Source of the DNA: an uncultured Oribacterium sp.
GTDB lineage: Bacteria > Bacillota > Clostridia > Lachnospirales > Lachnospiraceae
Direction: 5' to 3'
NCBI GenBank assembly: GCA_946413525.1
Contig: CAMKKZ010000001.1
Span: 1 to 64,000 of the forward strand
DNA length: 64,000 bases
The notes beneath the pieces are model-generated. The model was not told the DNA's origin, made no database searches, and saw only the letters and a program-made list of their open reading frames with translations. The translations under genes were made by a program, and so were the position numbers. Positions 14,503-42,339 of the stretch are shown in pieces; within the stretch, counting starts at the first letter, position 1; each line of letters opens with the position of its first letter.

Positions 14503-14531
14503 CTGGGCAATGATGAAAAGGAGGCTTGTAT

Positions 14532-15924: not shown

Positions 15925-16054
15925 GAATGAAGGGCTTGCCTTTCATTCTTGTAGCCATGGAGCCCCGCCCCACAAAAATCACGAAAGATCCTTTCATACT
16001 TCATTTGTGCTTTGACGCGACAAAAATGGGACTCAATGCCTGTGGCCTCAAGTC
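15925..16054 (+). repeat. Family 3 three-hairpin repeat, intergenic copy
   Basis: An upstream hairpin (ACAAGAATGAA/TTCATTCTTGT, 15930-15961) precedes a unit (about 15990-16054) that is clearly homologous to the two units inside cobD at 36412-36576: CCTTTCAT, CTTCATTTGTGC, ATGGGACTCAATGCCTG, then GGC(C)TCAAGTC. The third hairpin keeps its form: GACT, CA, ATGCC over GGC, CA, AGTC. Here the unit lies between the purine permease and ilvB and encodes nothing obvious. Confidence 0.85.
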
Positions 16055-16085
16055 AAAGAATGAAATGCGGGCAAATATAAACAAA

Positions 16086-16222: not shown

Positions 16223-16268
16223 GACAAATTTGCGCTGTACGGACATAAACTTCCTTGAGGGGTCGTTT

Positions 16269-28492: not shown

Positions 28493-28536
28493 CAGGTATC
28501 ATCCATGCTTCATGCATTCCTTGCACTGCGGAAAAA
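28493..28536 (+). repeat. Family 2 element, partial unit
   Basis: A degenerate module A trace (GGTATCATCCATGC) and the right half of module D (GCATTCC ... CTGCGGAAAAA) lie 5 nt after the cbiJ stop, directly before the first full unit. Confidence 0.6.
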
Positions 28537-28671
28537 TCTGAACAAAACATGCCTGAAGGCATTTTTTGTTCAGACGCATCCCTGTGGAATGCGCCAAATA
28601 CGGTATAAACCATGCCTGATGCATAGTTTATACCTAGGTTTTTCCGCAGCACAAGGAATGCTGCGGAAAAA
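28537..28671 (+). repeat. Family 2 element, copy c (full C-B-A-D unit)
   Basis: A 135-bp unit. Module C is TCTGAACAAA/TTTGTTCAGA with inner ATGCC/GGCAT. Module B is GCATCCC/GAATGC with one mismatch. Module A is GGTATAAACCATGC/GCATAGTTTATACC with one mismatch. Module D is TTTTTCCGCAGCA/TGCTGCGGAAAAA (28639-28671). It is the first of two tandem copies between cbiJ and cbiET. Confidence 0.9.
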
Positions 28672-28769
28672 TCTGAACAAAACATGCCTGAAGGCATTTT
28701 TTGTTCAGACGCATCCCTGTGGGATGCGCCAAATACGGTATAAACTATGCCTGATGCATAGTTTATACC
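28672..28769 (+). repeat. Family 2 element, copy d (C-B-A unit)
   Basis: The second tandem unit, offset by 135 bp. Module C is at 28672-28709, module B is a perfect CGCATCCC/GGGATGCG with a 3-nt loop (28710-28728), and module A is a perfect 14-bp hairpin GGTATAAACTATGC/GCATAGTTTATACC (28737-28769). Module D is absent. The spurious reading frames across this region come from the repeats. Confidence 0.9.
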
Positions 28770-28813
28770 TACCAATTCTTTAAACAATACAGCAAAGGTG
28801 GACATACGAAATA

Positions 28814-30058
28814 ATGGAGCAAACAATCTGCTTTGTAGGGGTCGGTCCAGGAAATGAAAAATATCTGTCGGAAGAGGCCAGGCTTGCCATTCTGGAGGCT
28901 GATCTTCTGACCGGGTCAAAAAGAATGCTGGAAACAGCGGGCCAATTGCTGATGGACAGCGGAAAAAAGATTCTTTTTGAAAGCAGCAACAGGGAAGAAA
29001 TAGCAGATTTTCTGAATTCGCATTCGGAATGTAAAAAGCCAGTGCTGCTTTACAGCGGGGATCTTTCTGTTTTTTCCGGGGCTATGGAAATGAGGAAGCT
29101 CCTGATAAAGAAGGGGTTTGATTCCGAAAAGATGCGCTTTATCCCTGGCATTTCGTCAGCCAGCCTGTTCTTGTCAAAAATAGGCATACCGCTTTCGGAG
29201 ACCGTTCTCTTAAGCCTTCATGGCAGGGAGGCTACCCCGCTTCCTCTTTTGCGTGAAAAAAAATATATATTACTTTTTCTGGGAAATGCGGGACAGGCAT
29301 CTGAAATAGCCGAAAAACTTATTTTTTATGGTTTGTCGAAGGTGGAAATGACATTGGCCAGCCGGCTTTCCTATCCTGATGAGAGTATTGTGCAGGGAAA
29401 ACCAGAGGACTTTCTTCATCTTCAACATGACAACCTCTCCCTGCTGTTTTTAAATAATAAAGACGCCGTTCCGCTTGGTTTTTTCGGATTACCGAATGAG
29501 CTTTTTTTCAAGGGCAGCGTCCCCATGAGCAAAAGGGAAAGCCGCATAGCTATTCTTTCACGTATGAAAATCAAACCGGACTCTGTCATTTTTGATATTG
29601 GGGCGGGAACAGGATCTGTATCTGTCGAGGCGGCTCTCCATGCGCCTTATGGGAAAGTCTATGCTTTTGAAAAAAAGGAAGACGCGGTATGCCTGATCAG
29701 GGAGAATCGTCGCCGTTTTGCATGTGACAACCTGCATGTCATTCCCGGAAATGCCCCGGATAGTTTTCGCCTGCTTCCAGAGGGGCTGATTCCCGATACA
29801 GTATTTATCGGAGGGAGCGGGGGTCATTTGCCTGAAATATTGCATGCAGTACTATTAAAAAACAATGCGGCAACGGTTGTTATTTCTGCTGTAACACTGG
29901 AAACGCTGGGATGCCTTCTGGAGGAGAAAAAGAGGCTTTCGAGTGAATATTGTATTAATTTCAGCAGCCTCTCTACCGTCAATGTGCCGGTACGGGGACC
30001 TTATCACATGATGCAGGCTGAAAATCCTGTATGGATTGCGGAAATTATACGACAATAG
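28814..30058 (+). CDS. cbiET: Precorrin-6Y C5,15-methyltransferase (CbiE-CbiT fusion)
   Basis: A bifunctional enzyme. Residues 1-200 are CbiE (ICFVGVGPGNEKYLSEEA, LLTGSKRML, LLYSGDLSVFSGAMEMRKLL), the C5 methylase. Residues about 230-414 are CbiT (ESRIAILSRMKIKPDSVIFD, then IGAGTGSVSVEAAL, FIGGSGGHLPEIL), which methylates C15 and removes the C12 acetate carboxyl. The fused form is widespread and 414 residues is the expected size. AAAGGTGG lies 13 nt before the ATG. Confidence 0.95.
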   Translation: MEQTICFVGVGPGNEKYLSEEARLAILEADLLTGSKRMLETAGQLLMDSGKKILFESSNREEIADFLNSHSECKKPVLLYSGDLSVFSGAMEMRKLLIKKGFDSEKMRFIPGISSASLFLSKIGIPLSETVLLSLHGREATPLPLLREKKYILLFLGNAGQASEIAEKLIFYGLSKVEMTLASRLSYPDESIVQGKPEDFLHLQHDNLSLLFLNNKDAVPLGFFGLPNELFFKGSVPMSKRESRIAILSRMKIKPDSVIFDIGAGTGSVSVEAALHAPYGKVYAFEKKEDAVCLIRENRRRFACDNLHVIPGNAPDSFRLLPEGLIPDTVFIGGSGGHLPEILHAVLLKNNAATVVISAVTLETLGCLLEEKKRLSSEYCINFSSLSTVNVPVRGPYHMMQAENPVWIAEIIRQ

Positions 30059-30114
30059 AGTAACACAAAGCCTGGTTTGACAGGAGAGTTGAAGCTTTTG
30101 ATCGGGAGGGCGAA

Positions 30115-32727
30115 ATGAGCGGGGGTATCCTTATTGCGGCTATGAACAGCGGGGCAGGAAAAACAACAGCAAGCTGCGCTATTCTTTCAGCCCTGCGAAA
30201 GAGGGGGCTTTCCATTCGAAGCTTTAAATGCGGTCCGGATTATATAGACACCATGTTTCACAGGGCAATAAACGATGGCAAGGGCGGGAATCTGGACAGC
30301 TATTTCATGGATTGGGAGAGAATCAGCGAGGTTTTTCACAGGCAGACAGAAGGGGTGGATTTTGTACTTGCAGAGGGGGCAATGGGCTTTTATGATGGCA
30401 TAAATGATTCATTGAAAGGCAGCGCTTTTGAAATAGCTGAAACTCTTGATTTCCCGGTTTTACTGCTTGTGGATGGGAAAGGCGCCGGACTGTCCGTTTG
30501 TGCATCCATTCAGGGAATGCTTTCCTTCTCATCCCATCCTCGCCGGAGGATTGCCGGAATTCTGCTCAACCGTGTTTCCCCTCCTTATTATCCCCGCCTG
30601 AAAAAAATGATAGAAGAGCATTGCGGAATTCCGGTATACGGTTATATTCCGGAACTGCCGGCATTCCGTCTTCCGGAACGCCATCTGGGATTGTTTCTTC
30701 CTGGGGAAATGCCACGATTCCGGGATTGGGAGGAAGGTCTTGGACGACAGGTCGAGGACAGCATTGACCTTGACGGCATCCTTTTGCTTGGAAACAGTGC
30801 CGGTTGGGCGCAGCATGAAATGGTGGGGAGAAATTCGATGTCCGAATACGAAAAAAGATATCCTGAATTTCCTGCCTTGCGGATTGCCGTAGCTTCCGAT
30901 GAAGCCTTCTGCTTTTATTATGAGGAGGACAGGATGCTCCTTCGTGACATGGGGGCTACCCTTGTCCCTTTCAGCCCGCTTTCCGATTCCTGCCTTCCAG
31001 AGGACATTGACGGAATTCTTATTCCGGGAGGATACCCGGAACATTTCATCCGGCAGCTCCATGATAATGTTTCCATGCGGCGTTCTATCCGTTCCGCTAT
31101 AAGGAATGGAACTCCTTGTATAGCGGAAGGAGGGGGATTCCTTTATTTATCCCACAGTCTTTCATATAATGGGGAAAGTAAGAAAATGTGCGGGATTTTT
31201 CCCGGAAGAGGGAAAATAAAGAACCGGCTTGTACGCTTTGGCTATGTGGAATTCTTTTCGGAAAGAGGGGGGATGTTCGGACCGGCAGGTACGCGTCTCA
31301 AGGGGCATGAATTTCATTATTTTGATACCGATCAGAATGGAAGCGGACTGCTCTTTAAAAAAGCCGGAGGAAAAACGGAATGGCGCGGGGCATTTTATAC
31401 CGATGTCATGTATGCGGGCTTTCCCCAGTTGTCCTTCCAAAGCAATCCTTCTGCCGCGGCCTCGTTCCTGAAATCCTGCGAATCATTCCGAATTCGAAGG
31501 GAAGCCGCAAGGCGCTGGGACAGTCTGGGAAAGCCTTTGGGAAGCCTGGGCCTCCTTGAAGAGAATATCATTAAAATCTGCGGTATTTATAGAAACAGCA
31601 AACCCGAGATAAGTTCAAAAAAAGCATTGGCAGTATTTTGCGGTGATCATGGAGTGGTGGCGGAGGGCGTCAGCCAGACGGATTCCAGCGTGAGCCATAT
31701 TGTCACGGAAAATTTTCCAAAGGGAAAGACCGTGGCCAGCCGCTTTGCCGTAATGACAGGGGTTGATGTATTCACAGTGGATACCGGCCTTTTGGGAGAT
31801 CATTATCCGGATAAGGATATAAAAGCTTTCCGCGTTATCGACCGAAAAATTCGTTTTGGTACAGGAAATATCGCAAAAGAACCCGCCATGAGCAAGGAGG
31901 AATGTTTGTCTGCCATGGCCTGCGGCAGAGAAATCGTCAGTCATCTGAAACAACATGGATACAAGCTTGTCTGTTTGGGCGAAATGGGTATTGGAAATAC
32001 CACTGCCAGTACCGCGATGCTTGCCGGCCTTCTTTTGCTGTATCGCAATGGCATTCATGATAATATGCCAGTTTTCTCAGATGGGCATGACTATTTTCTT
32101 TCTTTTGCTAAAAAGATTGGAATGCCTTTCCAAAATAGAGGTCGTGACGATCAGCCTGACAGGGCTATGAGCGCGCTTGATTTGTCCGCCCGGCAGCTAT
32201 CCGATTTGCTGACTGGCAGAGGAGCCGGACTGTCAGAGGACGGCCTGCATAGAAAAAGGACGGCCGTGAGAAAAGCTCTTATGAGGACGGCAAAAAAGGG
32301 GGCAAATAGTCCCGAAGATCTGCTCAGAGAACTGGGTGGAACGGAGATTGCTGCCATGACTGGCGCTATATTACAGGCCGTCCAGGATGAAATTCCCTTG
32401 CTTTTGGACGGAGCGATTACAGCCGTAGCAGCGCTTTACGCGTTTATGATGGACGCAAGGGTTCCCTCATTTCTGATCGCATCCCATAAGCCGGCGGAAA
32501 AAACAGGGAGATCATCCTTGCGTCTCCTTGGACTGAAGCCGATCCTTTCAGGGAATTTTTATCAGGGAGAGGGCTCGGGCGCGCTTCTGCTCCTTCCCCT
32601 TCTCGACATGGCAATGGATGTTTACAGGGAAATGTCCACTTTTCAGGAAATATCCGTAAAAGCATATCAACGGTATGACAAGCTGTGTGGGAAGCGGGAA
32701 AAAGGGAGGAAAAAAGACGGAAAATAA
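30115..32727 (+). CDS. CbiA-CobT fusion: cobyrinate a,c-diamide synthase / DMB phosphoribosyltransferase
   Basis: 870 residues in one frame. Residues 1 to about 450 are CbiA: P-loop MNSGAGKTT, FKCGPDYIDTMFH, LDSYFMD, and a class I glutaminase domain (ILIPGGYPE, KGHEFHYFDTD). The nucleophile motif normally AECGG reads AEGGG, with Gly339 for Cys. From about residue 460 it is CobT: DSLGKPLGSLGLLEENI, VFCGDHGVVAEGVSQ, GEMGIGNTTASTAML, and the catalytic Glu819 in QGEGSGALL, with an extra segment of about 45 residues near 650-695. The two domains act at different stages: amidation of ring side chains, and activation of the lower-ligand base. GGGAGGG precedes the ATG. No stop or frameshift signature is seen at the junction. 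Confidence 0.92.
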   Translation: MSGGILIAAMNSGAGKTTASCAILSALRKRGLSIRSFKCGPDYIDTMFHRAINDGKGGNLDSYFMDWERISEVFHRQTEGVDFVLAEGAMGFYDGINDSLKGSAFEIAETLDFPVLLLVDGKGAGLSVCASIQGMLSFSSHPRRRIAGILLNRVSPPYYPRLKKMIEEHCGIPVYGYIPELPAFRLPERHLGLFLPGEMPRFRDWEEGLGRQVEDSIDLDGILLLGNSAGWAQHEMVGRNSMSEYEKRYPEFPALRIAVASDEAFCFYYEEDRMLLRDMGATLVPFSPLSDSCLPEDIDGILIPGGYPEHFIRQLHDNVSMRRSIRSAIRNGTPCIAEGGGFLYLSHSLSYNGESKKMCGIFPGRGKIKNRLVRFGYVEFFSERGGMFGPAGTRLKGHEFHYFDTDQNGSGLLFKKAGGKTEWRGAFYTDVMYAGFPQLSFQSNPSAAASFLKSCESFRIRREAARRWDSLGKPLGSLGLLEENIIKICGIYRNSKPEISSKKALAVFCGDHGVVAEGVSQTDSSVSHIVTENFPKGKTVASRFAVMTGVDVFTVDTGLLGDHYPDKDIKAFRVIDRKIRFGTGNIAKEPAMSKEECLSAMACGREIVSHLKQHGYKLVCLGEMGIGNTTASTAMLAGLLLLYRNGIHDNMPVFSDGHDYFLSFAKKIGMPFQNRGRDDQPDRAMSALDLSARQLSDLLTGRGAGLSEDGLHRKRTAVRKALMRTAKKGANSPEDLLRELGGTEIAAMTGAILQAVQDEIPLLLDGAITAVAALYAFMMDARVPSFLIASHKPAEKTGRSSLRLLGLKPILSGNFYQGEGSGALLLLPLLDMAMDVYREMSTFQEISVKAYQRYDKLCGKREKGRKKDGK

Positions 32728-32748
32728 TCATGAGAAGGGGAAAGAAAA

Positions 32749-33327
32749 ATGTCCTTACATCTCATTATCGGAGCGAATGCTTCCGGAAAGTCCCACTATG
32801 CGGAAAAAAAAGCCAGCGCGTCGTGGCTCCTTTCTTCTGGGAAGGGAGGGCTGATCTACCTGGCCACCATGCTTTCCGGCAAGGATGATGAAACACAAAA
32901 GAGGATTAGGCGTCACCGGGAAAGACGGGCAGGAATGGGGTTTCTCAGTTTGGAATGCCCATACCCTTATGTATTGGAAGATATTTTGGAATCGGAAGAC
33001 TTTTACCTGCCAGACAGCGTTCTTCTTTTGGAGGATTTGACCAATCTTTTTGCCAATGTTTCTTTTCCCCCAGAATCTTTTCAAGGGCAGGACATGGAGT
33101 CAACTGCTACAGGGATATTGGATATATTGTTCCGTGTGGACGCAATGTGTTCGGATTTATTTATTGTGATGAATTCCATCTTTTCAGATGGATTTCAATA
33201 TCCCGAAGAAACAGAGGTCTTCCTGTATTACCTTTCCTGGTTACATAAAAAACTTTCGGCCCGCTCTTTGGATGTGACTGAAATAGTATGTGGCATTCCG
33301 GTTTTCCTAAAGAGAGAGCATATGTGA
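32749..33327 (+). CDS. cobU: CobU-like adenosylcobinamide kinase/guanylyltransferase, N-terminal motifs kept
   Basis: 192 residues. It keeps the P-loop (GANASGKS, residues 8-15) and the guanylyl-accepting histidine region (KRIRRHRERR, compare HHKDGR in the Salmonella enzyme), plus LLLEDLTNLFAN. The C-terminal motif NEVGxGIVP ... RxFRD ... GRxNQ of the family is lost (here MNSIFSDGFQYPEETEVF), although VCGIPVFLK is kept at the end. The missing motif is present in the small protein at 34200, on the far side of cobS. AAGGGG lies upstream of ATG 32749. Confidence 0.85.
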   Translation: MSLHLIIGANASGKSHYAEKKASASWLLSSGKGGLIYLATMLSGKDDETQKRIRRHRERRAGMGFLSLECPYPYVLEDILESEDFYLPDSVLLLEDLTNLFANVSFPPESFQGQDMESTATGILDILFRVDAMCSDLFIVMNSIFSDGFQYPEETEVFLYYLSWLHKKLSARSLDVTEIVCGIPVFLKREHM

Positions 33328-33348
33328 GCATTTCTTTTGTAGTTATAG

Positions 33349-33396
33349 GTATGCGCCAAATACGGCATAAACTATGCCCGATGCATAGTTTATGCC
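33349..33396 (+). repeat. Family 2 element, copy e (module A, B remnant)
   Basis: It begins 21 nt after the cobU stop. A trace of module B (GGTATGCGCCAAATAC) is followed by a perfect module A, GGCATAAACTATGC (33364-33377) with GCATAGTTTATGCC (33383-33396). Relative to copy d the third pair has changed from T-A to C-G on both arms. The element is open in the cobS frame and creates an artificial N-terminal extension there. Confidence 0.88.
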
Positions 33397-33416
33397 TGGG
33401 AAAGAAAGGGGTTTTT

Positions 33417-34160
33417 TTGCGCTCGTTCATTTTGGCATTCTCCATGTATTCAGCCATCCCCATGCCGGAAATGACCTGGAAAGAGGAGGATACATGCTTT
33501 GTCCTTTGCTTTTTTCCTTTGGTCGGGCTTGTCGTGGGAACTGTATTATATTTTGCGTTCAAACTTATGACCTCCTTATCCGTCCCTCCCTTGCTTCGGG
33601 GGGCAGTCCTTTTCACTGTTCCAATCCTTGTGACGGGGGGGATCCATATAGATGGGTTTCTGGACACCCTTGACGCGAAGCATTCCTGGAGGGAAAAAGA
33701 GAAGCGCCTGGAAATATTGAAGGATCCGCATATTGGAGCCTTTGCGTTTGTATATGGGTCAACTTATGTTTTGCTGCAAACAGCCGCGCTTTCCGGCCTG
33801 GAGGAGGAATCTGTAAAAGCCTATGCCGCGTCCTTGATCCTGTCCAGAATTCTTTCCGCGATTTCCGCATTGTTTTTCCCGAAAGCAAATACTACGGGTT
33901 CCTTATATACCCTTGCGAAAGCGCAGGACTTCATTGTAAAATGGGTTTTGATTACAGAATTATGTTTTCTTGTCCTGCTTCTGTTATTCCGGTTTGGCAG
34001 GCGAGGGATAGTTTGTCTTTTTGCTTCCGCTCTGGCTTTTCTCTATTACCGGTATATGTCCAAACGACTTTTTGGAGGTATCACCGGGGATCTGGCAGGG
34101 TATTTTCTGTGCATTTGCGAGCTCTCTGTTTTGATGTCTTTGGCTTTTTTGTTCAAATAG
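33417..34160 (+). CDS. cobS: Adenosylcobinamide-GDP ribazoletransferase (cobalamin synthase)
   Basis: An integral membrane enzyme that joins adenosyl-GDP-cobinamide to alpha-ribazole. 247 residues with several membrane segments. Family marks are FSMYSAIPMPEMTW at the N-terminus, GGIHIDGFLDTLDAKHS, EILKDPHIGAFAF and LFGGITGDLAGYF. The frame is open from 33288, but that stretch is the cobU tail and repeat copy e. TTG 33417 is preferred: GAAAGGGG lies 5 nt upstream and the protein then begins as family members do. Confidence 0.92.
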   Translation: MRSFILAFSMYSAIPMPEMTWKEEDTCFVLCFFPLVGLVVGTVLYFAFKLMTSLSVPPLLRGAVLFTVPILVTGGIHIDGFLDTLDAKHSWREKEKRLEILKDPHIGAFAFVYGSTYVLLQTAALSGLEEESVKAYAASLILSRILSAISALFFPKANTTGSLYTLAKAQDFIVKWVLITELCFLVLLLLFRFGRRGIVCLFASALAFLYYRYMSKRLFGGITGDLAGYFLCICELSVLMSLAFLFK

Positions 34161-34199
34161 TTTATTACGTATTTGACGATATGCATTGGAGTTCTTAAC

Positions 34200-34535
34200 A
34201 TGGTCTTTTTGGTAGGCGGAAAATATCAGGGAAAACTGGATTTTGCCAAATCTCAATTTGCCGACTTCCACATTATCCCGGAATACGAGGAAATTGTGAG
34301 AAGACAAATTGCGCAAGGGAAAGATCCCCTTGCTGAAGCGGAGAGTCTGTTGTCAGGGGATTCCTGTCCTGAAAGCCTTTTAATCATATCGGAAGAAACT
34401 GGCTGTGGAATTGTGCCGTTATCAAGGGAGGATAGGGACTTCCAGGAACAGAACGGAAGAGTGAATTGTTTTTTTGCGGCCCGGGCGGAAAAGGTTTACC
34501 GTATTCTTTGTGGGATTCCTCAAAAAATCAAGTAG
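34200..34535 (+). CDS. Small CobU-like protein, C-terminal motif kept
   Basis: 111 residues, clearly related to the C-terminal half of CobU: ETGCGIVPLSREDRDFQ, then GRVNCFFAARAEKVYRI and CGIPQKIK. The start MVFLVGGKYQGKLDFAK resembles the CobU P-loop start, but the GKS core reads GKL, so nucleotide binding of the usual kind is doubtful, and the guanylylated histidine segment is missing. It complements the motif loss in the protein at 32749. It may be a partner subunit, a relic, or a regulator. GGAG lies 8 nt before ATG 34200; a TTG at 34173 is less likely. Confidence 0.8.
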   Translation: MVFLVGGKYQGKLDFAKSQFADFHIIPEYEEIVRRQIAQGKDPLAEAESLLSGDSCPESLLIISEETGCGIVPLSREDRDFQEQNGRVNCFFAARAEKVYRILCGIPQKIK

Positions 34536-34554
34536 GCGAAGAGGAACTATTTTA

Positions 34555-35568
34555 ATGAAAGAACGATTTATCATCCTCCTGGCCGCTTTTCTTTTGGATC
34601 TGCTTCTGGGAGATCCGCCTTATCCTTTCCACCCTGTCAGACTGATGGGAAAAGTAATTATAATGTCGGAAAAGGGAGTACGCTTTTTTTTTCAAATTCC
34701 TGTCGGGCAGGGAAATGAGAAAGGGACACTGAAAAAAATACGAAGTCTTTCCGCAGGGGGTTTTTTAGTAATCCTTGTGCTTTTGATTTGTGCCGGATTG
34801 CCGGCCATCATGTTTTTATACATTAAACAACGATTCCGTTTTTTTTCCTTCATCCTTTCACTGGCATGGGTTTATCAACTTCTTTCAGCCAGAGACATGA
34901 AGGATGAAGCGATGAAAGTATATGACTCATTGGAAAAAGAAGATCTTCCCAAAGCCAGGCAGTGTCTTTCCAGGATAGTAGGCCGGGATACGGACAGCCT
35001 GGATAGAAAGGGAATTATCATGGCCACCATTGAAACGGTGGCCGAAAATACTTCTGATGGCGTGATCGCCCCTATGCTGTTTTATTATCTTTTTGATATT
35101 CCGGGAATCTTTTTCTATAAAGCGTCAAATACAATGGATTCCATGCTGGGTTACAAAAATGAAAAGTATCGTTATTTTGGACGGGCAGCCGCCAGGCTGG
35201 ATGATCTTTGCAATTTCATCCCTTCCCGCCTTACTGCCTTCCTTTTCATTCTTTCGGCTTTTCTGACAGGCTTTGACTGGAAGGAAGCATGGAGGATTAT
35301 GTGGAGGGACGCCGGAAAACACAACAGCCCTAATGCAGGCTGGCCGGAGTCCGCCGTTGCCGGCGCCCTTGGCCTTCGTCTTGGGGGACCTGCCAGCTAT
35401 TTTGGGAAAATAAGCGATAAAGCCTGGCTTGGGGATAGGAAGCGGGAGTATTTGAACGAATCCATACCATGCTGCTGCAGACTGATGTATGTTTCATCCC
35501 TCCTTTTCTTTATACTGCCTGTTTTTGGCTTTGTGATCCACTGTTTCCGGCAAGCCTTGCCGGCGTAG
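34555..35568 (+). CDS. cbiB: Adenosylcobinamide-phosphate synthase
   Basis: A membrane enzyme that attaches aminopropanol phosphate (made by CobD) to adenosylcobyric acid. 337 residues. Signature stretches are FLLDLLLGDPPYPFHPVRLM, LSRIVGRDTDSLD, IATIETVAENTSDGVIAP as ATIETVAENTSDGVIAP, YKASNTMDSMLGYKNEKY, ARLDDLCNFIPSRLTA and NAGWPESAVAGALGLRLGG. ATG 34555 has GAGGA 9 nt upstream and begins at the family N-terminus; the frame is open further upstream without a signal. Confidence 0.95.
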   Translation: MKERFIILLAAFLLDLLLGDPPYPFHPVRLMGKVIIMSEKGVRFFFQIPVGQGNEKGTLKKIRSLSAGGFLVILVLLICAGLPAIMFLYIKQRFRFFSFILSLAWVYQLLSARDMKDEAMKVYDSLEKEDLPKARQCLSRIVGRDTDSLDRKGIIMATIETVAENTSDGVIAPMLFYYLFDIPGIFFYKASNTMDSMLGYKNEKYRYFGRAAARLDDLCNFIPSRLTAFLFILSAFLTGFDWKEAWRIMWRDAGKHNSPNAGWPESAVAGALGLRLGGPASYFGKISDKAWLGDRKREYLNESIPCCCRLMYVSSLLFFILPVFGFVIHCFRQALPA

Positions 35569-35589
35569 GGGCGATTTAAAGCATAAGAG

Positions 35590-35667
35590 GAAAGGAGTCC
35601 TGCTGATGCGATAGCGCATCGGTTTGTCATGAAATTAGTGTAGCGAAAACCCACTCTAATAGGGGAG
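35590..35667 (+). repeat. Family 1 repeat, copy 7
   Basis: Hairpin 1 is a perfect GATGCG/CGCATC around ATAG (35605-35620). The linker GGTTTGTCATGAAATTA is identical to copy 9. Hairpin 2 has decayed on the left arm (TTAGTGTAG) while the right arm CCACTCTAA is intact. The tail TAATAGGGGAGG gives the ribosome binding site of cobD. Confidence 0.88.
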
Positions 35668-35677
35668 GAAAGCGAAT

Positions 35678-37072
35678 ATGGGCGGTGCCATATCTTTCAT
35701 CCGGCAAACGGAGCAATCAAGTCCCGCTAGGGAAAAGCCGCTTTGCTCCCCGGCTGGTTTGTCATGCCAGAACTCAGAATGTTCAAAAACCGCCCTAATA
35801 AAGGGGCAGCATGGTGGAGATGTCTATCGAAACAAAGTCAGGCTGGACTTTTCTGTAAGCCTGAATCCATTGGGAATGCCGGAATCTGTAAAGGAAGCTG
35901 CAAAAAGGGGTGTTGACTTGTCCGGGCAATACCCTGACTGGCGTCAGGATGCCCTTCGGGAAAAGATCTCCAATCATTTTCAGGTTCCGCCCCATTGCAT
36001 CCTTCCAGGAAATGGAGCAGCGGAATTGATTTATGCCTTCTGTCAGGCGCTTCGTCCCAAACGGGGGCTTTGCTTTGTGCCTTGTTTTCAGGAATATGAG
36101 GAGGCGTTACTTTCAGCAGGAGCGGTTTTCTGTCCTGTTTTTCTGCCGGAGGAAGAAGCTTTCCAGTTCCCTCCACAGGATAGATTGGAATTCTGGATGG
36201 ATGAGCTTGTCAGGAAAAACAATCTGGGCATGGGGGATGTCGTCTTTCTTTGCAATCCTAATAACCCTACAGGAGTAGCACTTTCAGCAGAAAGCATTCA
36301 TATTATTGCTCGTTGCCTTGAAAAGAAAAAAATATGGCTGTTTTTGGATGAATGCTTCCTTCCTTTTCTTGACAGTGGCTATTCATTCCTCGATCTGCCC
36401 TACATGGATAAGCATGAAAGGGCAAGCCTTTCATGCTTCATTTGTGCCGCGGGAGCGTCACAAATGGGACTCAATGCCTGCGGCATCAAGTCAATGCATG
36501 AAAGGGCAAACCCTTCACCTTTCATTTGTGCCGCGGGAGCGTCACAAATGGGACTCAATGCCTGCGGCATCAAGTCGAAGAATGATAATGAGGAGGCAGG
36601 CAGTAAAAGCTTCGCAGGAAGAGTCTTCCTGCTTCGAGCATTCACGAAGATTTACGCCATGCCCGGTCTTCGACTGGGATTTGGAATTTGTTTTGACATG
36701 GATTTATACTCAAAAATGCGTTCTGTTCTGCAGCCTTGGAACATTTCGCTCCCGGCACAGCTTGCGGGAATCGCCGCGCTGGATGAGGAAAAATATGTTC
36801 GCGTTACCAGGGGGCTTGTTCGGCAGGAGCATTCTTTCCTTTCAGAAAAGCTTTCACAGGGTCTTGCGGAAAAAACATACCCTGGAAACGCGAATTTCAT
36901 ATTGTTTAAAGCCCGCAGCGATCTTTCAGCAAGGCTTCTGGAAAAAGGGATCCTGATCAGGGATTGCCGTAATTTTCGAGGGCTTTCCGCCGGCTTTTTC
37001 CGAATCGCTGTCAGAACCCATGAAGAAAATATTCAGTTAATCCGCGCATTTGAGGAATCTCTGTCGCGGTGA
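35678..37072 (+). CDS. cobD: L-threonine-O-3-phosphate decarboxylase with repeat-derived segments
   Basis: A PLP enzyme of aminotransferase fold class I that makes (R)-1-aminopropan-2-ol phosphate for CbiB. Family marks are HGGDVYRN near residue 45, LDFSVSLNPLG, LPGNGAAELIY, NPNNPTG, FLDECFLPF, and FTKIYAMPGLRLGFG with the PLP lysine Lys324. At 464 residues it is about 100 longer than usual. Residues 1-44 include translated family 1 repeat sequence. Residues about 245-300 are two tandem copies of the family 3 repeat (ICAAGASQMGLNACGIKS twice), inserted in frame between the aspartate strand and the lysine strand. Both ends of the fold are intact, so the protein may work. ATG 35678 has GGGGAGG upstream; a start nearer HGGDVYRN would need a rare codon. 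Confidence 0.9.
   Translation: MGGAISFIRQTEQSSPAREKPLCSPAGLSCQNSECSKTALIKGQHGGDVYRNKVRLDFSVSLNPLGMPESVKEAAKRGVDLSGQYPDWRQDALREKISNHFQVPPHCILPGNGAAELIYAFCQALRPKRGLCFVPCFQEYEEALLSAGAVFCPVFLPEEEAFQFPPQDRLEFWMDELVRKNNLGMGDVVFLCNPNNPTGVALSAESIHIIARCLEKKKIWLFLDECFLPFLDSGYSFLDLPYMDKHERASLSCFICAAGASQMGLNACGIKSMHERANPSPFICAAGASQMGLNACGIKSKNDNEEAGSKSFAGRVFLLRAFTKIYAMPGLRLGFGICFDMDLYSKMRSVLQPWNISLPAQLAGIAALDEEKYVRVTRGLVRQEHSFLSEKLSQGLAEKTYPGNANFILFKARSDLSARLLEKGILIRDCRNFRGLSAGFFRIAVRTHEENIQLIRAFEESLSR
35730..35806 (+). repeat. Family 1 repeat, copy 8, inside the cobD 5' coding region
   Basis: GGTTTGTCATG (35756-35766), then CAGAATGTTCAAAAACCGCCCTAATAAAGGGG, follow the family 1 layout, preceded by a GCCG/CGGC trace of hairpin 1. 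It lies downstream of ATG 35678 and so is translated in cobD as an N-terminal leader. It is more diverged than copy 7, which lies just upstream. Confidence 0.65.
36412..36576 (+). repeat. Family 3 repeat, two tandem copies inside cobD
   Basis: Copy 1 is 36412-36492 and copy 2 is 36496-36576. Each is 81 nt and the period is 84 nt, so the frame is kept. Copy 1 has hairpin 1 GCATGAAAGG/CCTTTCATGC, hairpin 2 ATTTGTG-CGC/GCG-CACAAAT with a GGGA loop, and hairpin 3 GACT-ATGCC/GGCAT-AGTC with matching CA bulges. In copy 2 the right arm of hairpin 1 is altered, while hairpins 2 and 3 are identical to copy 1. A relative lies between genes at 15925-16054. Confidence 0.95.
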
Positions 37073-37082
37073 GTTTAAAATG

Positions 37083-37190
37083 GTGTAATTAGCACTTTAA
37101 AAACACTCTAATAAGGGAGCCTTAATGATGCGATACCGCATCGGTTTGTCATGAAATTAGAGTGGCAAAAACCCACTCTAATAGGGGAGG
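37083..37190 (+). repeat. Family 1 repeat, copy 9 (best preserved, tandem)
   Basis: A half unit (TTAGCACTTTAAAAACACTCTAATAAGGGAGCC) runs into a full unit. Hairpin 1 is GATGCG/CGCATC around ATAC (37127-37142). The linker is GGTTTGTCATGAAA. Hairpin 2 is a perfect 9-bp TTAGAGTGG (37157-37165), loop CAAAAAC, CCACTCTAA (37173-37181). The tail TAGGGGAGG ends 11 nt before the cbiP start. Confidence 0.93.
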
Positions 37191-37201
37191 ACATTAATAC
37201 G

Positions 37202-38785
37202 ATGGCGAAGACGATCATGCTTCAGGGAACCATGAGCAATGTCGGAAAAAGCTATCTCTGCGCAGGGCTTTGCAGGATTTTTCGACAGGATGGTTTCCGG
37301 GTGGCTCCCTTCAAGGCCCAGAATATGGCCTTGAATTCATGCGTTTCCATAGAAGGATTGGAAATGGGAAGGGCCCAGGCCGTTCAGGCAGAGGCTTGCG
37401 GCATTGCGCCATCTGTCCTTATGAATCCTGTTCTTTTGAAACCATCAAGTGACAGGGGATCCCAGGTAATCGTAAACGGGCATATATATGGGGAAATGGG
37501 GGCTAGGGAATATTTTTCTTTCAGACAAAAATTGCGATCCCGGATTTTTGAATCTTTCCATAAGCTTTCACAGGATTATGACATTATCGTGATCGAAGGA
37601 GCCGGAAGCCCTGCTGAAATAAATCTAATGGAAAACGACATAGTAAATATGGGTATGGCCCGAATGGCAGGTTCGCCTGTCCTTCTTGTGGGAGATATCG
37701 ATCCTGGCGGAGTTTTCGCCCAGCTCCTTGGAACCCTTGATTTGCTTCCTCCGGCTGACAGGAAAAGGGTACGGGGTATGATTATCAATAAGTTCCGTGG
37801 GGACCCGACTATTTTATATCCTGGAATCGATGAACTATCCCGCAGAGCGGAAAAGCCGGTGCTTGGCCTGGTGCCTTTTACGGATGTAAGCCTCCCTGAA
37901 GAGGATTCCCTTTCAGGCGAACTTTTTCATAATGAGTTTACAGGTGGCATTGATATTTGTATCATCCGCTTTCCCAGGATATCTAATTTCACCGATTTCC
38001 AGCCCCTTCGGAGGGAAAAAGGCATTTCGGTGCGTTATGCTATGCGGGCAGGAGATTTGGGAAGCCCGGATCTTCTGATTTTGCCCGGAAGCAAAAATAC
38101 GATAAATGATATGAAATGGCTACGGGAAAAGGGCTTTCCTGACGAGATTTACAGGCTTATGGAAGAGGGAGTTCCTATAATGGGGATATGCGGCGGTTAC
38201 GAAATGCTGGGCGAAGAAATTCTTGATCCTTTTCATGTGGAAACAGGCGATGATGAAGACGGGGAGGGTTTGGAGGAGCCAAATTCCGTGGAGGGCCTAT
38301 GCATTCTGCCTCTTCGGACAATTTTACAGAAAGAAAAGTTTACTGAAAATGAGATGGGGCATATTAATGCTCTGCCGGTTGATTCCGTTTTTTCCACACT
38401 TTCCGGCATTCAGGTATCAGGATATGAAATGCATGTCGGCTTGAGTGAAATAAGGATTGGGGATGGATGCGGCGAAGGATTTGCAAGTCTGTCAAATGGG
38501 CGGAAGGACGGATGGGTGCAAGGAAATGTTCTTGGAACATTTCTTCATGGAATCTTTGAATCGGATGATTTTCGCGGTGAATTCTGTGATATACTAAGGC
38601 GGAGAAGCAATAAAAGGAATGAGGATTTAGCGGAGAGCGGAGGTTTAAACCGAAATTTGACCGGAGGAAAAGTCCTTTCTTTAACTGGCAGCAGGGATAA
38701 ACAGTTCGACAGACTTGCCGAAATTCTACGGAAAAGCCTTGCCATTAAAGATATTTACAAAATAATGGAAGAAGGGCCGGAGTAA
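37202..38785 (+). CDS. cbiP: Cobyric acid synthase
   Basis: The glutamine-dependent amidotransferase (CbiP/CobQ) that amidates side chains b, d, e and g. 527 residues. The N-terminal P-loop is MLQGTMSNVGKSYLCAGL, followed by FKAQNMALNS, VIEGAGSPAEINL, and the glutaminase domain with the nucleophile intact in GICGGYEMLGE and HGIFES with the triad histidine. The frame is open 51 nt further up, but those codons are repeat copy 9; ATG 37202 has GGGGAGG 11 nt upstream and matches the family start. Confidence 0.96.
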   Translation: MAKTIMLQGTMSNVGKSYLCAGLCRIFRQDGFRVAPFKAQNMALNSCVSIEGLEMGRAQAVQAEACGIAPSVLMNPVLLKPSSDRGSQVIVNGHIYGEMGAREYFSFRQKLRSRIFESFHKLSQDYDIIVIEGAGSPAEINLMENDIVNMGMARMAGSPVLLVGDIDPGGVFAQLLGTLDLLPPADRKRVRGMIINKFRGDPTILYPGIDELSRRAEKPVLGLVPFTDVSLPEEDSLSGELFHNEFTGGIDICIIRFPRISNFTDFQPLRREKGISVRYAMRAGDLGSPDLLILPGSKNTINDMKWLREKGFPDEIYRLMEEGVPIMGICGGYEMLGEEILDPFHVETGDDEDGEGLEEPNSVEGLCILPLRTILQKEKFTENEMGHINALPVDSVFSTLSGIQVSGYEMHVGLSEIRIGDGCGEGFASLSNGRKDGWVQGNVLGTFLHGIFESDDFRGEFCDILRRRSNKRNEDLAESGGLNRNLTGGKVLSLTGSRDKQFDRLAEILRKSLAIKDIYKIMEEGPE

Positions 38786-38799
38786 TCGAAAAAATAGCT

Positions 38800-38857
38800 T
38801 TTTCTGTGGAATGCGCAAAACAAGTTATGAACTATATCTGATGTATAGTTAATAACT
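38800..38857 (+). repeat. Family 2 element, copy f (variant module A)
   Basis: After the cbiP stop comes a module B remnant (CTGTGGAATGCGC) and a variant module A, AGTTATGAACTATA/TGTATAGTTAATAACT, with the usual 5-nt loop TCTGA. The stem sequence differs from other copies at many positions but still pairs apart from a bulge. Confidence 0.7.
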
Positions 38858-38966
38858 ACTGTAGTAATTGATGAAAAATGGAATAATGGAATAATGGAAG
38901 AAATAGAAAGAACAGCTTAACGAACAGGAAGCAAGGTTGAAAGTGCGGGGAGGGCGGAAAAAGACC

Positions 38967-39515
38967 ATGATACATATTTATTATGGTGATGGGAAAGGGA
39001 AGACAAGCGCAGCGATTGGCCTATGCATCAGGGCCATTGGTCATGGAATACCGGTACTGTTCATTCAATTTCTGAAGGATTCGCATTCCGGTGAAATTGA
39101 GATTCTTCAAAGGCTTCCCGGCATCCATGTTATGCATCCGGAACGTCATTATGGTTTTTCATACCGAATGACACAAGAAGAAAAAAAGGATGCGGAATGG
39201 CAATACCTTTTCATGCTTGGGAAGGCACTTGCCTTTCAGGACAGCATAAATGAAGAGAATGCGGCTGCGGATTTTTTTCGTATTTCATGCGTCATTGTCC
39301 TGGATGAAATACTACATGCAATCAGCACGCGCATAATCAGCGAGAGACAGTTCATGGATTTTCTGGGACGTATTAAACCGAGCACGGAATTGGTACTTAC
39401 CGGTATGGCGGCAAACGATTCCCTTCTGCAAAGGGCTGACTATATTACGGAAATGAAGAAAAAGAAGCATCCTTTTGACAAAGGCGTGCTGGCCAGGGCA
39501 GGCATTGAGGAATGA
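38967..39515 (+). CDS. cobO: ATP:corrinoid adenosyltransferase (CobO/BtuR type)
   Basis: Adds the 5'-deoxyadenosyl group to cob(I)alamin or its precursors. 182 residues. It starts with MIHIYYGDGKGKTSAAIGLC, whose P-loop variant GDGKGKTS is typical; later motifs are VLFIQFLKD, CVIVLDEILHAI and ELVLTG. ATG 38967 matches the family start and has GGGGAGGG upstream; a GTG or ATG earlier in the frame adds only basic residues. Confidence 0.95.
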   Translation: MIHIYYGDGKGKTSAAIGLCIRAIGHGIPVLFIQFLKDSHSGEIEILQRLPGIHVMHPERHYGFSYRMTQEEKKDAEWQYLFMLGKALAFQDSINEENAAADFFRISCVIVLDEILHAISTRIISERQFMDFLGRIKPSTELVLTGMAANDSLLQRADYITEMKKKKHPFDKGVLARAGIEE

Positions 39516-39550
39516 GAACTGATAAGCCGAAAACCATCTGAATAAAGGAA
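39512..39550 (+). repeat. Family 1-like remnant before cbiC
   Basis: CTGATAAGCCGAAAACCATCTGAATAAAGGA follows the layout of hairpin 2 and tail, but pairing is poor and hairpin 1 is absent. It provides the AAAGGA before cbiC. Confidence 0.35.
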
Positions 39551-39558
39551 TTTTTGAA

Positions 39559-40188
39559 ATGGAATTTATCAATTTGCCAGTACAAATTGAAAAAAGAAGC
39601 TTTGAGATCATAAAGAAGGAGCTCTTGGATAAAGGGATTTCTCTTGATCCTGAACTGTCCCCTGTCATTTTGAGGGTAATTCACGCAAGCGCTGATTTTG
39701 AATATGCAGAATCTCTGTATTTTTCAAAAGACGCTGTTCCGAAAATGAAGGAAGCGTTGTCAAAGGGGGCTTCCATTGTTACTGATACAGAGATGGCCAA
39801 GGCCGGAATCAGTCATCAAAAGCTAGAACGCTTTGGAGGAAAAGTCTATTGTTTCATGAAGGACGAGAGAGTTCGCGAAGAGGCTATGAGCAGGGGGGCT
39901 ACAAGGGCATCTGTCAGTATGGAATACGCGTCTCGCCTGCATGAAGAACTGATTTTCGCGATTGGAAACGCCCCGACTGCCTTGCTTCGTATTTTGCAGC
40001 TAATGGAGGAAACTGATTTCCGTCCGTCCGGCATTATCGGGGTTCCGGTTGGCTTTGTCAATGTCATAGAGGCAAAAGAAAGGCTGATTCGTGAAAAACG
40101 AATTCCTGTCATATCATCAAGAGGGCGAAAGGGGGGCAGCAGCGTGGCAGCCGCAATTTGTAATGCGCTGCTCTATTCGATAGACTAA
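39559..40188 (+). CDS. cbiC: Cobalt-precorrin-8 methylmutase
   Basis: Moves the methyl group from C-11 to C-12, giving cobyrinic acid. 209 residues, normal size. Motifs are RVIHASADFEYAESL with the catalytic histidine, GASIVTDTEMAKAGI, TRASVSMEYA, FAIGNAPTALLRI, GVPVGFVNVIEAKERL and SRGRKGGSSVAAAICNALLY. It is the last cobalamin gene on this strand. AAAGGA lies upstream. Confidence 0.95.
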   Translation: MEFINLPVQIEKRSFEIIKKELLDKGISLDPELSPVILRVIHASADFEYAESLYFSKDAVPKMKEALSKGASIVTDTEMAKAGISHQKLERFGGKVYCFMKDERVREEAMSRGATRASVSMEYASRLHEELIFAIGNAPTALLRILQLMEETDFRPSGIIGVPVGFVNVIEAKERLIREKRIPVISSRGRKGGSSVAAAICNALLYSID

Positions 40189-40233
40189 AATGTATCATGC
40201 GTATTTTATTTGTGAAAGGGAGGATTATTATTT

Positions 40234-41364
40234 GTGCTGACTGATTATAAAGATGGACATCCAATCTATGAACAGATTATCAATTATTACAAACAACTGA
40301 TTTTGAAAGGCATCCTGGAACAGGATGAGCAGTTGCCTTCCGTCCGAAGCCTTGCCATGGAATATTCAACGAATCCCAATACCATACAAAAGGCTTTTTC
40401 GTTAATGGAACGTCAGGGATACCTTTACTATAGTAAAGGAAAAGGATTTTTTGTCAAAAAAGGAAACCTGGCAAAAAAAGAAAAGGCAGCGGAGCTTCAT
40501 AACAGAATCTTAAATATAGTTAATGAGGCTAAGGCACTCGGCTTTACCCCGGAAGATTTGCACTGTCCTCCGGAATTGTTCGAATGGCAGATTATGAGCG
40601 TAGAAACAAATGCAGGTGGGGAAAGCATACGGGCTGTGGAAGATGAACCGGATATCGGAGCAGCTATTCTGTCGAGGGAAACGGGTATTGAAACAGCTAT
40701 CCCGGAGGATGAATCATACAATGGGATGCCCATTTCGCAGTATGAGCCAAGCCAGGACTCAGCCATACAAGCTGATGAGCCGTCGGCCCATGACTCAGCC
40801 ATACAACCGGATGAGCAGATGACTTATGAGTCAGGCATTCAGCCGGAGGAGCCGACAGACCATGAGCCAGGCATCCAGCAGGAGATCCATGGGTCAGGCA
40901 TTCAGCAGGAGGAGCCGACAGCTTATGAACCAGGCATCCAGCAGGAGGAGCCGACAGCTCATGAACCAGGCATCCAGCCGGAGGAGGAGCCGACAGACCA
41001 TGAGTCAGGCATTCAGCAGGAGAAGCCGACAGACCATGAGTCAGGCATTCAGCCGGAGGAGCCGACAGACCATAAGTCAGGCATTCAGTCGGAAGGTACT
41101 GTCATCCCGTCAGAAGAAGGGGGAAATTCAGAGCAGCTAAAACCCTCTCTGATAAAAGAGATGGACACGGAAGGGGGCGTTTCGGATAAGCCTCCTGCGC
41201 AGCTTCCCGGCGAAAGCAGGTATGCCGTTTTCATAGATGAGAAGAAAGAAGAGGACATGCCCTCAGATGAGGGAGACTATGATGAGATCGGACTATGGAA
41301 TGCGGCGGGAAGCGGCATAGTAATTACTGTGGAAGATATCAAAGAGGATGGCGGAGACACATAA
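40234..41364 (+). CDS. GntR (YtrA-type) regulator with long acidic repeat tail
   Basis: Residues 1-80 are a winged helix of the YtrA branch (PIYEQIINYYKQLILKG, LPSVRSLAMEYSTNPNTIQKA as LPSVRSLAMEYSTNPN, ERQGYLYYSKGKGFFV). YtrA-type proteins are normally about 120-130 residues. Here some 250 more follow, acidic and disordered, with a 12-residue unit repeated about six times (GIQQEEPTAYEP, GIQQEEPTAHEP, GIQQEKPTDHES) between about residues 200 and 290. The start is GTG 40234, with GAAAGGGAGG 10 nt upstream. It heads an operon with an ABC ATPase and permease, which it probably represses. Confidence 0.88.
   Translation: MLTDYKDGHPIYEQIINYYKQLILKGILEQDEQLPSVRSLAMEYSTNPNTIQKAFSLMERQGYLYYSKGKGFFVKKGNLAKKEKAAELHNRILNIVNEAKALGFTPEDLHCPPELFEWQIMSVETNAGGESIRAVEDEPDIGAAILSRETGIETAIPEDESYNGMPISQYEPSQDSAIQADEPSAHDSAIQPDEQMTYESGIQPEEPTDHEPGIQQEIHGSGIQQEEPTAYEPGIQQEEPTAHEPGIQPEEEPTDHESGIQQEKPTDHESGIQPEEPTDHKSGIQSEGTVIPSEEGGNSEQLKPSLIKEMDTEGGVSDKPPAQLPGESRYAVFIDEKKEEDMPSDEGDYDEIGLWNAAGSGIVITVEDIKEDGGDT
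40833..41092 (+). repeat. 36-bp tandem repeat inside the GntR gene
   Basis: About six units of 36 bp built on CAGGCATTCAG, CAGGAGGAG and CCGACAGACCATGAG. One unit carries an extra codon and another is shortened, but all changes keep the frame. A second frame across the repeat is also open, a side effect of the period being a multiple of three. Confidence 0.9.
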
Positions 41365-41430
41365 ACCATTGGTTTAAGCTCGGCATAAGGAATGGGAGAT
41401 AGGGAAGCGGGATGAAGAAGGGAATAGCTT

Positions 41431-42339
41431 ATGATTGAAATCAATGCATTGGAAAAAAAATTTGAAGAAAAGCTCAAAGCTCTGGATGGAATATCCCTTT
41501 TAATCAGGGAACAGCAGGTTTTTGGGTTGATTGGTACAAATGGAGCGGGCAAAAGCACGCTGCTCCGAATCCTATGCGGCATATTAAAGCAGGATGCAGG
41601 GGAGGTGCTGGTGGATGGGCAAACGGTTTATGATAATCCAAAAGTAAAAAGCCTTATTTTTTTCATATCTGATGAACCATGGTTTTTTCGCAATGCTTCA
41701 CCCGCAACCATGAAAAACTATTACAGTCAGATTTACCCTGCCTTTGACAAGACAAGATGCGAGAATCTCCTTCGGGATTTCTCCCTGGACATGGACAGAA
41801 AAATTTCCACCTTTTCCAAAGGAATGAAGAAACAACTGGCGGTTATTCTGGGAATTTCTTCAGGGTCAAAATATCTTATTTGTGACGAAACCTTTGATGG
41901 CCTGGATCCGGTTATGAGGCAAGGGGTTAAAAGTATTTTCGCGAACGACATGCTGGAAAGGGGTATGACCCCAATCATTGCTTCTCATAATCTCAGGGAG
42001 CTTGAAGACATTTGTGATCATATTGGACTTCTGCATCAAGGCGGGGTATTGCTCAACGAAGACCTGGATAACATGAAGCTTAACATCCAAAAGGTGCAGG
42101 CTGTTTTTTCGGACGAAAATGATTTGGAAAATCTCAATTCTCATCTTCATGTATTGAAGCAGCAGCAAACCGGCAGGCTCCGCACATTCACCATACGGGG
42201 AAGCCGTGAAGAAGTGGAAGAGTACTTTCGCGGAATCAGTACTGTTTATTTTGAGATTCTTCCCCTGACTCTGGAGGAGATTTTCATAAGTGAAACGGAG
42301 GTTGTCGGTTATGACGTCAAAAAATTCATTCTTCACTAG
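41431..42339 (+). CDS. ABC transporter ATP-binding protein
   Basis: 302 residues. Walker A GTNGAGKSTLL, signature FSKGMKKQLAVILG in place of LSGGQ, Walker B YLICDETFDGLDP and the switch histidine region IIASHNLRELEDIC are all present. The FSKGM signature and linkage to a YtrA-type regulator fit the antibiotic- or envelope-stress-responsive exporters of Firmicutes; substrate unknown. It overlaps the permease start by 29 nt. Confidence 0.92.
   Translation: MIEINALEKKFEEKLKALDGISLLIREQQVFGLIGTNGAGKSTLLRILCGILKQDAGEVLVDGQTVYDNPKVKSLIFFISDEPWFFRNASPATMKNYYSQIYPAFDKTRCENLLRDFSLDMDRKISTFSKGMKKQLAVILGISSGSKYLICDETFDGLDPVMRQGVKSIFANDMLERGMTPIIASHNLRELEDICDHIGLLHQGGVLLNEDLDNMKLNIQKVQAVFSDENDLENLNSHLHVLKQQQTGRLRTFTIRGSREEVEEYFRGISTVYFEILPLTLEEIFISETEVVGYDVKKFILH

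Follow-up and report, generated by a model that had tools for sequence, protein, structure and literature searches.

The window analysed here, a stretch of DNA 64,000 nucleotides in length, contains on its forward strand a gene, cobD, into which two copies of a palindromic repeat are set in frame. The gene and the features of its insert are as follows:

35678-37072, forward strand: cobD, encoding a threonine-phosphate decarboxylase-like PLP enzyme of 464 aa (TIGR01140 in two stretches, Aminotran_1_2, Foldseek)
36410-36493, forward strand: repeat unit 1, 84 nt with three hairpins, of the GGGC subfamily, KHERASLSCFICAAGASQMGLNACGIKS (repeat comparison, RNA folding)
36494-36577, forward strand: repeat unit 2, 84 nt, MHERANPSPFICAAGASQMGLNACGIKS, with hairpin 1 partly decayed (boundaries from comparison with other copies)
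36578-36584, forward strand: partial repeat AAGAATG that closes the array and begins a third unit (read from the sequence)
36446-36461 and again 36530-36545, forward strand: private variant GCCGCGGGAGCGTCAC, found nowhere else among the stretches searched
36647-36649, forward strand: codon of K324, the lysine of FTKIY, downstream of the insert (an invariant alignment column)

The neighbours of cobD are cbiB-like and cobQ-like genes, and a Shine-Dalgarno (SD)-like GGGGAGG was seen by eye 5′ of the gene. In a named-genome collection, the nearest named relatives of the protein were those of Anaerostipes sp. MSJ-23 and of an uncultured Acetatifactor. The best NCBIfam match of the frame, to TIGR01140, scored 245.4 bits in two stretches, below the curated cut-off of 290.55, possibly because the insert splits the match; since the score is below the cut-off, the CobD activity of the product is something that we infer.

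A sequence-only reading of this DNA had proposed that two palindromic repeats lie in frame within cobD, each adding the same peptide without a stop codon, and both points were confirmed. The units are head-to-tail direct repeats, 92% identical and with a period of exactly 84 nt; the frame from 35678 to 37072 is uninterrupted across both of them, with the peptide ICAAGASQMGLNACGIKS present twice, and by pattern the repeat is far beyond chance relative to a reversed control. The insert comprises 56 codons in frame between the DECFLPF and FTKIY strands. The codon of K324, which we take to be the PLP lysine, is 3′ of the insert, and therefore in-frame read-through of both units is required to reach it. 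The reading had described an 81-nt unit with an 84-nt period; the period stands, whereas the unit itself is 84 nt long and there is no 3-nt spacer. The register given by the repeat finder for the pair (36412-36495 and 36496-36579) is shifted relative to the natural units (36410-36493 and 36494-36577), which were set by comparison with other copies. RNA folding of the units gave -43.4 and -32.2 kcal/mol, with z scores of -7.3 and -2.9 against shuffled sequences; each unit folds into three hairpins, of which hairpin 1 of unit 2 is partly decayed. As had been claimed, the two units do not differ in hairpins 2 and 3, and their hairpin 1 differs by non-synonymous changes.

Other repeats were seen near cobD and elsewhere. 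By eye, a second repeat family, ending in CACTCTAATAGGGGAGG, lies directly before cobD (35605-35668) and before cobQ (37103-37190) and seems to supply their SD sequences; the cobQ copy starts with a similar CACTCTAATAAGGGAG, and the end of this family gave 11 matches in the stretches scanned. A diverged copy of this second family, also recognised by eye, is at 35756-35811, seemingly in frame within the 44-residue N-terminal extension of CobD. A match to a Y1 transposase elsewhere in the genome (L213) is flanked, by eye, by GGGGACGGTCC-type repeats plus one that resembles the family before cobD. The window also contains a 135-nt tandem repeat with palindromic parts (28526-28771, 1.8 copies) and two tandem repeats, possibly coding, with units of about 36 nt (40788-41093) and about 33 nt (51500-51581), which are multiples of three.

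Architecture and distribution of the repeat family

The genome from which the window comes consists of 4,017,963 bases in 70 contigs. A similarity search of this genome found the unit in at least 50 places (40 of the 219 first-look candidates were scored), and a pattern of 28 letters from hairpin 2, allowing 3 mismatches at most, matched 175 times on the forward and 181 times on the reverse strand, counts that overlap and are not additive because the pattern is nearly self-complementary; the reversed control gave 0. A profile of 83 positions, built from repeat copies, was applied to the window and to 118 further stretches that surround listed copies or the Y1 transposase gene (together 795,390 non-redundant bases, a non-random sample of about 20% of the genome). 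This sample holds 151 distinct arrays with 184 units of more than 60 nt, and the whole genome at least as many; the repeat is a large family. By size, 118 arrays are single, 24 double and 6 triple, and 3 consist of fragments only. The counts given below on right ends, periods, SD context, covariation and unit variants include one array twice, owing to overlapping stretches.

Units measure 83 nt as a rule, or else 84 nt, and have three hairpins in a fixed order; in the consensus the first two are AAGTATGAAAGGCAAGCCTTTCATACTT and CATTTGTGCCGCTGGCGCGACACAAATG, and the third lies around GACTCAATGCCTGCGGCATTAAGTC (z = -6.1 when the partial start of the next unit is included in the fold). It is bounded by the direct motif AAGYATG(AAA). 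The same motif, the start of another unit, forms the right end of arrays, and the left flank is unconserved; the AAGAATG at the end of the cobD array resembles the right end of most arrays in a profile of 91 right ends. The AAGYATG present at both array ends could belong to the element or to its target sequence. Terminal inverted repeats, a criterion for MITEs, are absent from the unit, the ends of which are direct AAGYATG motifs, and each hairpin is an internal inverted repeat. Among 63 distinct 83-nt units outside genes, the arms of the hairpins covary: 1924 of 2079 cells are paired, compared to 1889 +/- 3 after shuffling, with 42 double changes. A search of Rfam with window positions 30000-42000, at E up to 0.5, returned nothing for the repeat and a single match, below the gathering score and outside the repeat.

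Most of the arrays are intergenic. In a first set of 124 arrays, 100 were between genes, 17 overlapped a gene end and 7 were inside genes, whereas the coding share of the first 643 kb was 76.4%; these values come from a gene caller that uses a simple hexamer score and likely misses some genes, and borderline arrays were excluded from the nine in-gene arrays described below. The window has one further, diverged copy, found by profile match:

15988-16055, forward strand: diverged copy of the unit, between the open reading frames 14526-15893 and 16230-17948

Hexamer gene calls at three loci (L137, L144 and L168) have the end of the upstream gene overlapping the start of an array, and the TGA in the GTATGA of the unit may provide the stop codons there, as reported for BOX elements (PMC3049150).

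A frame-by-frame test placed nine arrays, containing 14 units, within genes, in frame and with coding signal on either flank, one of the nine being only probable. The gene families, assigned by Pfam and PDB searches, are:

cobD: 2 units
TIR-NTPase-TPR gene: 2 units
ftsK/spoIIIE: 1 unit, inverted, separating the membrane part from the motor
AlaX-like gene: 1 unit
SpoU methyltransferase: 1 unit
dGTPase: 1 unit
RsmE: 3 units, diverged
KdpD-like kinase: 2 units, with weak upstream coding signal
glycosyltransferase: 1 unit, near the N-terminus, only probable

The notion that a repeat which is non-coding elsewhere had become protein in cobD was therefore half right, as the family is indeed mostly non-coding elsewhere but cobD is not a special case. 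Similarly, the gene is open and conserved here, yet its protein-coding repeat is a property of the genome, seen in nine genes, and not an accident of a single cobalamin gene. In-frame placement is not universal, given that fumC is split out of frame by one inverted unit (L201, 2943-3595), so that Lyase_1 and FumaraseC_C are found in separate pieces flanking it, and that a membrane-protein gene (L125), which has no supporting family match, may be a second broken gene. The upstream part of the split fumC also looks frame-shifted.

Unit length, array growth and relatives of the inserts

The period from one AAGNATG to the next could be measured for 9 of the 14 in-gene units and was 84 nt in 7, 81 nt in 1 and 83 nt in 1. 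Of 97 measured outside genes, 78 had a period of 83 nt and 12 a period of 84 nt. Multiples of three thus make up 8 of 9 periods in genes compared to 14 of 97 elsewhere (Fisher 8e-6), a contrast that is partly circular, as the status of being inside a gene is itself defined via the open frame. Since 19 of the 26 full 84-nt units are outside genes, length alone is no sign of coding. The extra base by which in-gene units reach 84 nt is in four different places: the GGGC form in hairpin 1 of the cobD, AlaX, dGTPase and glycosyltransferase units (a form also present in intergenic units), an additional C in hairpin 2 of TIR-NTPase unit 2, which is otherwise identical to several 83-nt units, an additional T between hairpins 1 and 2 of the SpoU unit, and an additional T in hairpin 1 of the more diverged ftsK unit. 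To judge from the sequences, these varied routes to 84 nt suggest that open frames were selected, whether from among arriving variants or through subsequent change.

Of 48 units in 23 multi-unit arrays, only 4 had an array mate as their nearest relative; most arrays therefore look like successive arrivals. The distance within arrays was 0.138 compared to 0.155 under permuted membership (fraction 0.013), and so local duplication plays some part. The cobD pair shares GCCGCGGGAGCGTCAC, which is private to it among the stretches searched, and hence local duplication or conversion is likely there. The proposal of recent duplication or active conversion consequently fits the cobD pair, with its private 16-mer, but it is not a general rule for the family.

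The insertion in CobD was upheld by alignment with relatives, in which the repeats account for 56 codons and are absent from all 13 best-hit rows (10 of them congeners); among the best-hit relatives that were aligned, the repeat was likewise absent from 12 for dGTPase, 9 for SpoU and 3 for RsmE. In five of the proteins, the inserts are placed at alignment gaps relative to solved structures. The alignment of CobD with 1lc5 extends to residue 238 and resumes at 315, the matching step in 1lc5 being from 199 to 207. The corresponding residues are 179 and 294 in RsmE against 185 and 198 in 1vhk, 55 and 100 in SpoU against 76 and 89 in 7qiu (with a weak match for the first piece), 72 and 143 in AlaX against 68 and 82 in 3kew, and 295 and 340 in dGTPase against 340 and 351 in 2dqb, where the pieces are weak and the second-best chain, 9p8w, aligned through the insert with low similarity. 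By alignment count, dGTPase has about 16-20 and SpoU about 18-29 extra residues over congeners, and CobD is about 67 residues longer than its short-loop relatives compared to the 56 residues in repeats. The inserts are therefore not clean additions of 28 codons, and the residues that flank them have changed as well. In the genus, the CobD loop carries other, unrelated extra residues in L051-L053 and L055-L058 and is very short in L054, L059 and L060; because its length varies without the repeat, the insertion site is permissive.

An AlphaFold2 model of CobD, made with four sequences, had a mean pLDDT of 61, with values below 50 for residues 1-62 and 226-312. When this model was used in Foldseek, the top matches were 1lkc, 1lc8, 1lc7 and 1lc5, which are Salmonella CobD structures. 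The insert is thus predicted to be unstructured within a recognisable fold.

Full units were seen only in the window's own genome when the genus, family and order were searched. In 16 other genomes of the genus, the hairpin pattern gave three single hits with three mismatches each. With at most 2 candidates scored per genome, 397 genomes of the family yielded matches in G263 and G279 only, weak and partial, and 392 genomes of the order yielded two scraps of 27 and 30 nt; the two sets have genomes in common, and the own genome is in both. Phage, plasmid and viral collections, from which records of the own genome were possibly left out, gave no match by blastn or exact pattern. The G263 and G279 look-alikes have hairpin motifs in common with the unit and not the whole unit. 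In G263, which belongs to another genus, about three look-alike copies with three hairpins are upstream of genes, and the two read over their whole length terminate directly ahead of an ATG. These look-alikes (L087, L090 and L240-L243) have AAAAGGAG in the loop of hairpin 1, an SD inside that loop.

Origin of the cobD insert and comparison with known elements

The interpretation that we consider probable is that the cobD segment is a pair of units from a small palindromic repeat that is species-specific, high in copy number and of a mobile, non-autonomous sort, and that is tolerated in loops when the reading frame survives. We infer movement of the unit only from its copy number and distribution; no empty site was found at the DNA level. 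Units would have been inserted into pre-existing genes, and insertions that broke the frame would mostly have been purged by selection, such that 84-nt versions, equal to 28 codons, were favoured in genes. The cobD insert would be translated as a disordered loop of about 56 residues, leaving the PLP fold intact and the enzyme working, with a nearly neutral effect. With less confidence, we suggest that arrays mostly grow by entry of a new unit into the AAGYATG of a resident unit and that local duplication or conversion is the likelier origin of the cobD pair. A stronger version, in which an active, site-specific inserter of peptide cassettes places 83-84 nt units into AAGYATG in and between genes, and a frame-neutral 84-nt subfamily spreads through coding DNA and adds disordered loops at a measurable rate, seems doubtful to us.

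The unit might instead be kept as a structure in 5′ untranslated regions that aids the translation or stability of downstream genes, the in-gene copies being strays, and we regard this as a possibility to be held tentatively, in part compatible with a mobile element. Of 143 non-genic arrays, 43 have an SD and a start codon (of an open reading frame of at least 100 aa) within 150 nt in their own direction compared to 22 in the other direction (p = 0.0125), the right end of the unit, ATGAAAGG, sometimes forms an SD itself, the hairpins covary, and look-alikes in G263 are upstream of genes, two of them ending just before the ATG with an SD in the hairpin-1 loop. However, arrays occur in both orientations and in all gene contexts (++ 44, -- 28, -+ 17 and +- 7, of 96), covariation is expected of any palindromic element, and the hairpin-2 pattern is missing from congeners except for three poor hits. 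As for how the unit moves, it could be, as in a REP/RAYT system, the substrate of the single Y1 transposase of the genome, for which there is one PF01797 match in a 255-aa frame (C9:7040-7375, L213) and the richness of the unit in hairpins. This is improbable, given three hairpins per unit, ends that are direct rather than inverted, other repeats (by eye) flanking the Y1 gene, and no copy of the unit around that gene in C9:1-13500; the Y1 transposase was thus considered as the mover and found to be unsupported.

That cobD is a pseudogene or its array an assembly artefact is very unlikely in our view: the assembly is in 70 contigs, tandem repeats are error-prone and fumC is broken in the same genome, but the cobD units carry a private variant that is absent from all other stretches searched and are well inside a 247-kb contig, and the reading frame stays open from end to end and has conserved residues to either side of the insert. 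We give hardly any credence to a domesticated peptide, that is, to a functional insert in CobD and other proteins, for example a common tag for binding or localisation. The peptide ICAA(G/D)A(S/T)QMG(L/P)NACGI(K/T)S is indeed found, the same or nearly so, in CobD, the TIR-NTPase and the SpoU protein; however, the copies are read in three or more frames, including an antisense one, and so have no peptide in common, the cobD units differ non-synonymously in hairpin 1, the RsmE and KdpD-like copies are widely diverged, and the CobD insert is unstructured in the predicted model.

The hosts of Rickettsia and Wolbachia palindromic elements (RPE and WPE) are alphaproteobacterial intracellular bacteria. 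In-frame palindromic elements, apparently tolerated, have been described in unrelated Rickettsia genes and outside genes, the RPE being about 150 bp long (PMC10969869), as well as in Wolbachia (PMC4224334) and in an archaeon, as cited in PMC2996958. The sequence-only reading had named the Rickettsia elements as the parallel, and with in-frame copies in nine genes this is the right comparison. As with RPE and WPE, a short palindromic repeat is present in many copies, in frame in several unrelated genes and also outside genes, and as with RPE the inserts are where homologues tolerate extra residues (in five of nine: CobD, RsmE, SpoU, dGTPase and AlaX). In contrast to the approximately 150-bp RPE, the present unit has 83-84 nt, three hairpins, tandem arrays in register and direct terminal motifs, and is mostly intergenic; its host is probably a gut clostridium, with the nearest named CobD relatives in Anaerostipes and an uncultured Acetatifactor, and probably of another phylum. 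By likeness of description, the present family would work like RPE, yet it is set apart by size and probable host. No clostridial case was among the open-licence papers that our literature searches listed.

Four other systems share some of these features. The enterobacterial RU-1, RU-2 and RU-3 are intergenic MITE-like repeats with open frames fused into annotated genes, and PMC2759123 reports the fusions at C-terminal regions and none inside conserved domains of superfamily proteins, whereas the present inserts are mostly internal, between conserved blocks. Pneumococcal BOX elements, of structure boxA-boxB(n)-boxC, are built of hairpin modules and overlap mainly gene ends and BOX-encoded open reading frames (PMC3049150). 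They resemble the present family in their Gram-positive host, modular hairpins, tandem modules and overlap with gene ends, and differ in that here a single unit type is repeated and inserts are also found in internal loops. REPINs, inverted REP pairs tied to a RAYT gene, are likewise palindromic and high in copy number, with compensatory changes in hairpins (PMC3116915); the present unit differs in its three hairpins and direct ends and in having no copy beside the sole Y1 transposase (C9:1-13500). PARCEL repeats are palindromic, protein-coding and amphipathic (PMC2996958), and like them the present repeat is palindromic and can code for protein, but it is mainly non-coding and contributes one to three units within otherwise ordinary proteins.

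By profile score, the in-gene copies form a rough age series, with dGTPase and AlaX high, cobD in between, and the KdpD-like kinase and RsmE low. To our knowledge, most of the known palindromic elements that code for protein come from intracellular Rickettsiales, a bias that weak selection in small populations might explain. A family of many copies, with nine arrays in frame inside genes, in an anaerobe of 4 Mb that is probably free-living would make it testable in an ordinary bacterium whether selfish DNA feeds new protein segments; the rough age series, the frame filter from 83 to 84 nt and the congeners that lack the unit could serve such a test. There is also a lesson for annotation, in that a unit interrupting a domain may lower the score against the family model, as has perhaps happened with CobD. 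It seems that this bacterium acquires extra protein loops from selfish-looking DNA, as Rickettsia does.
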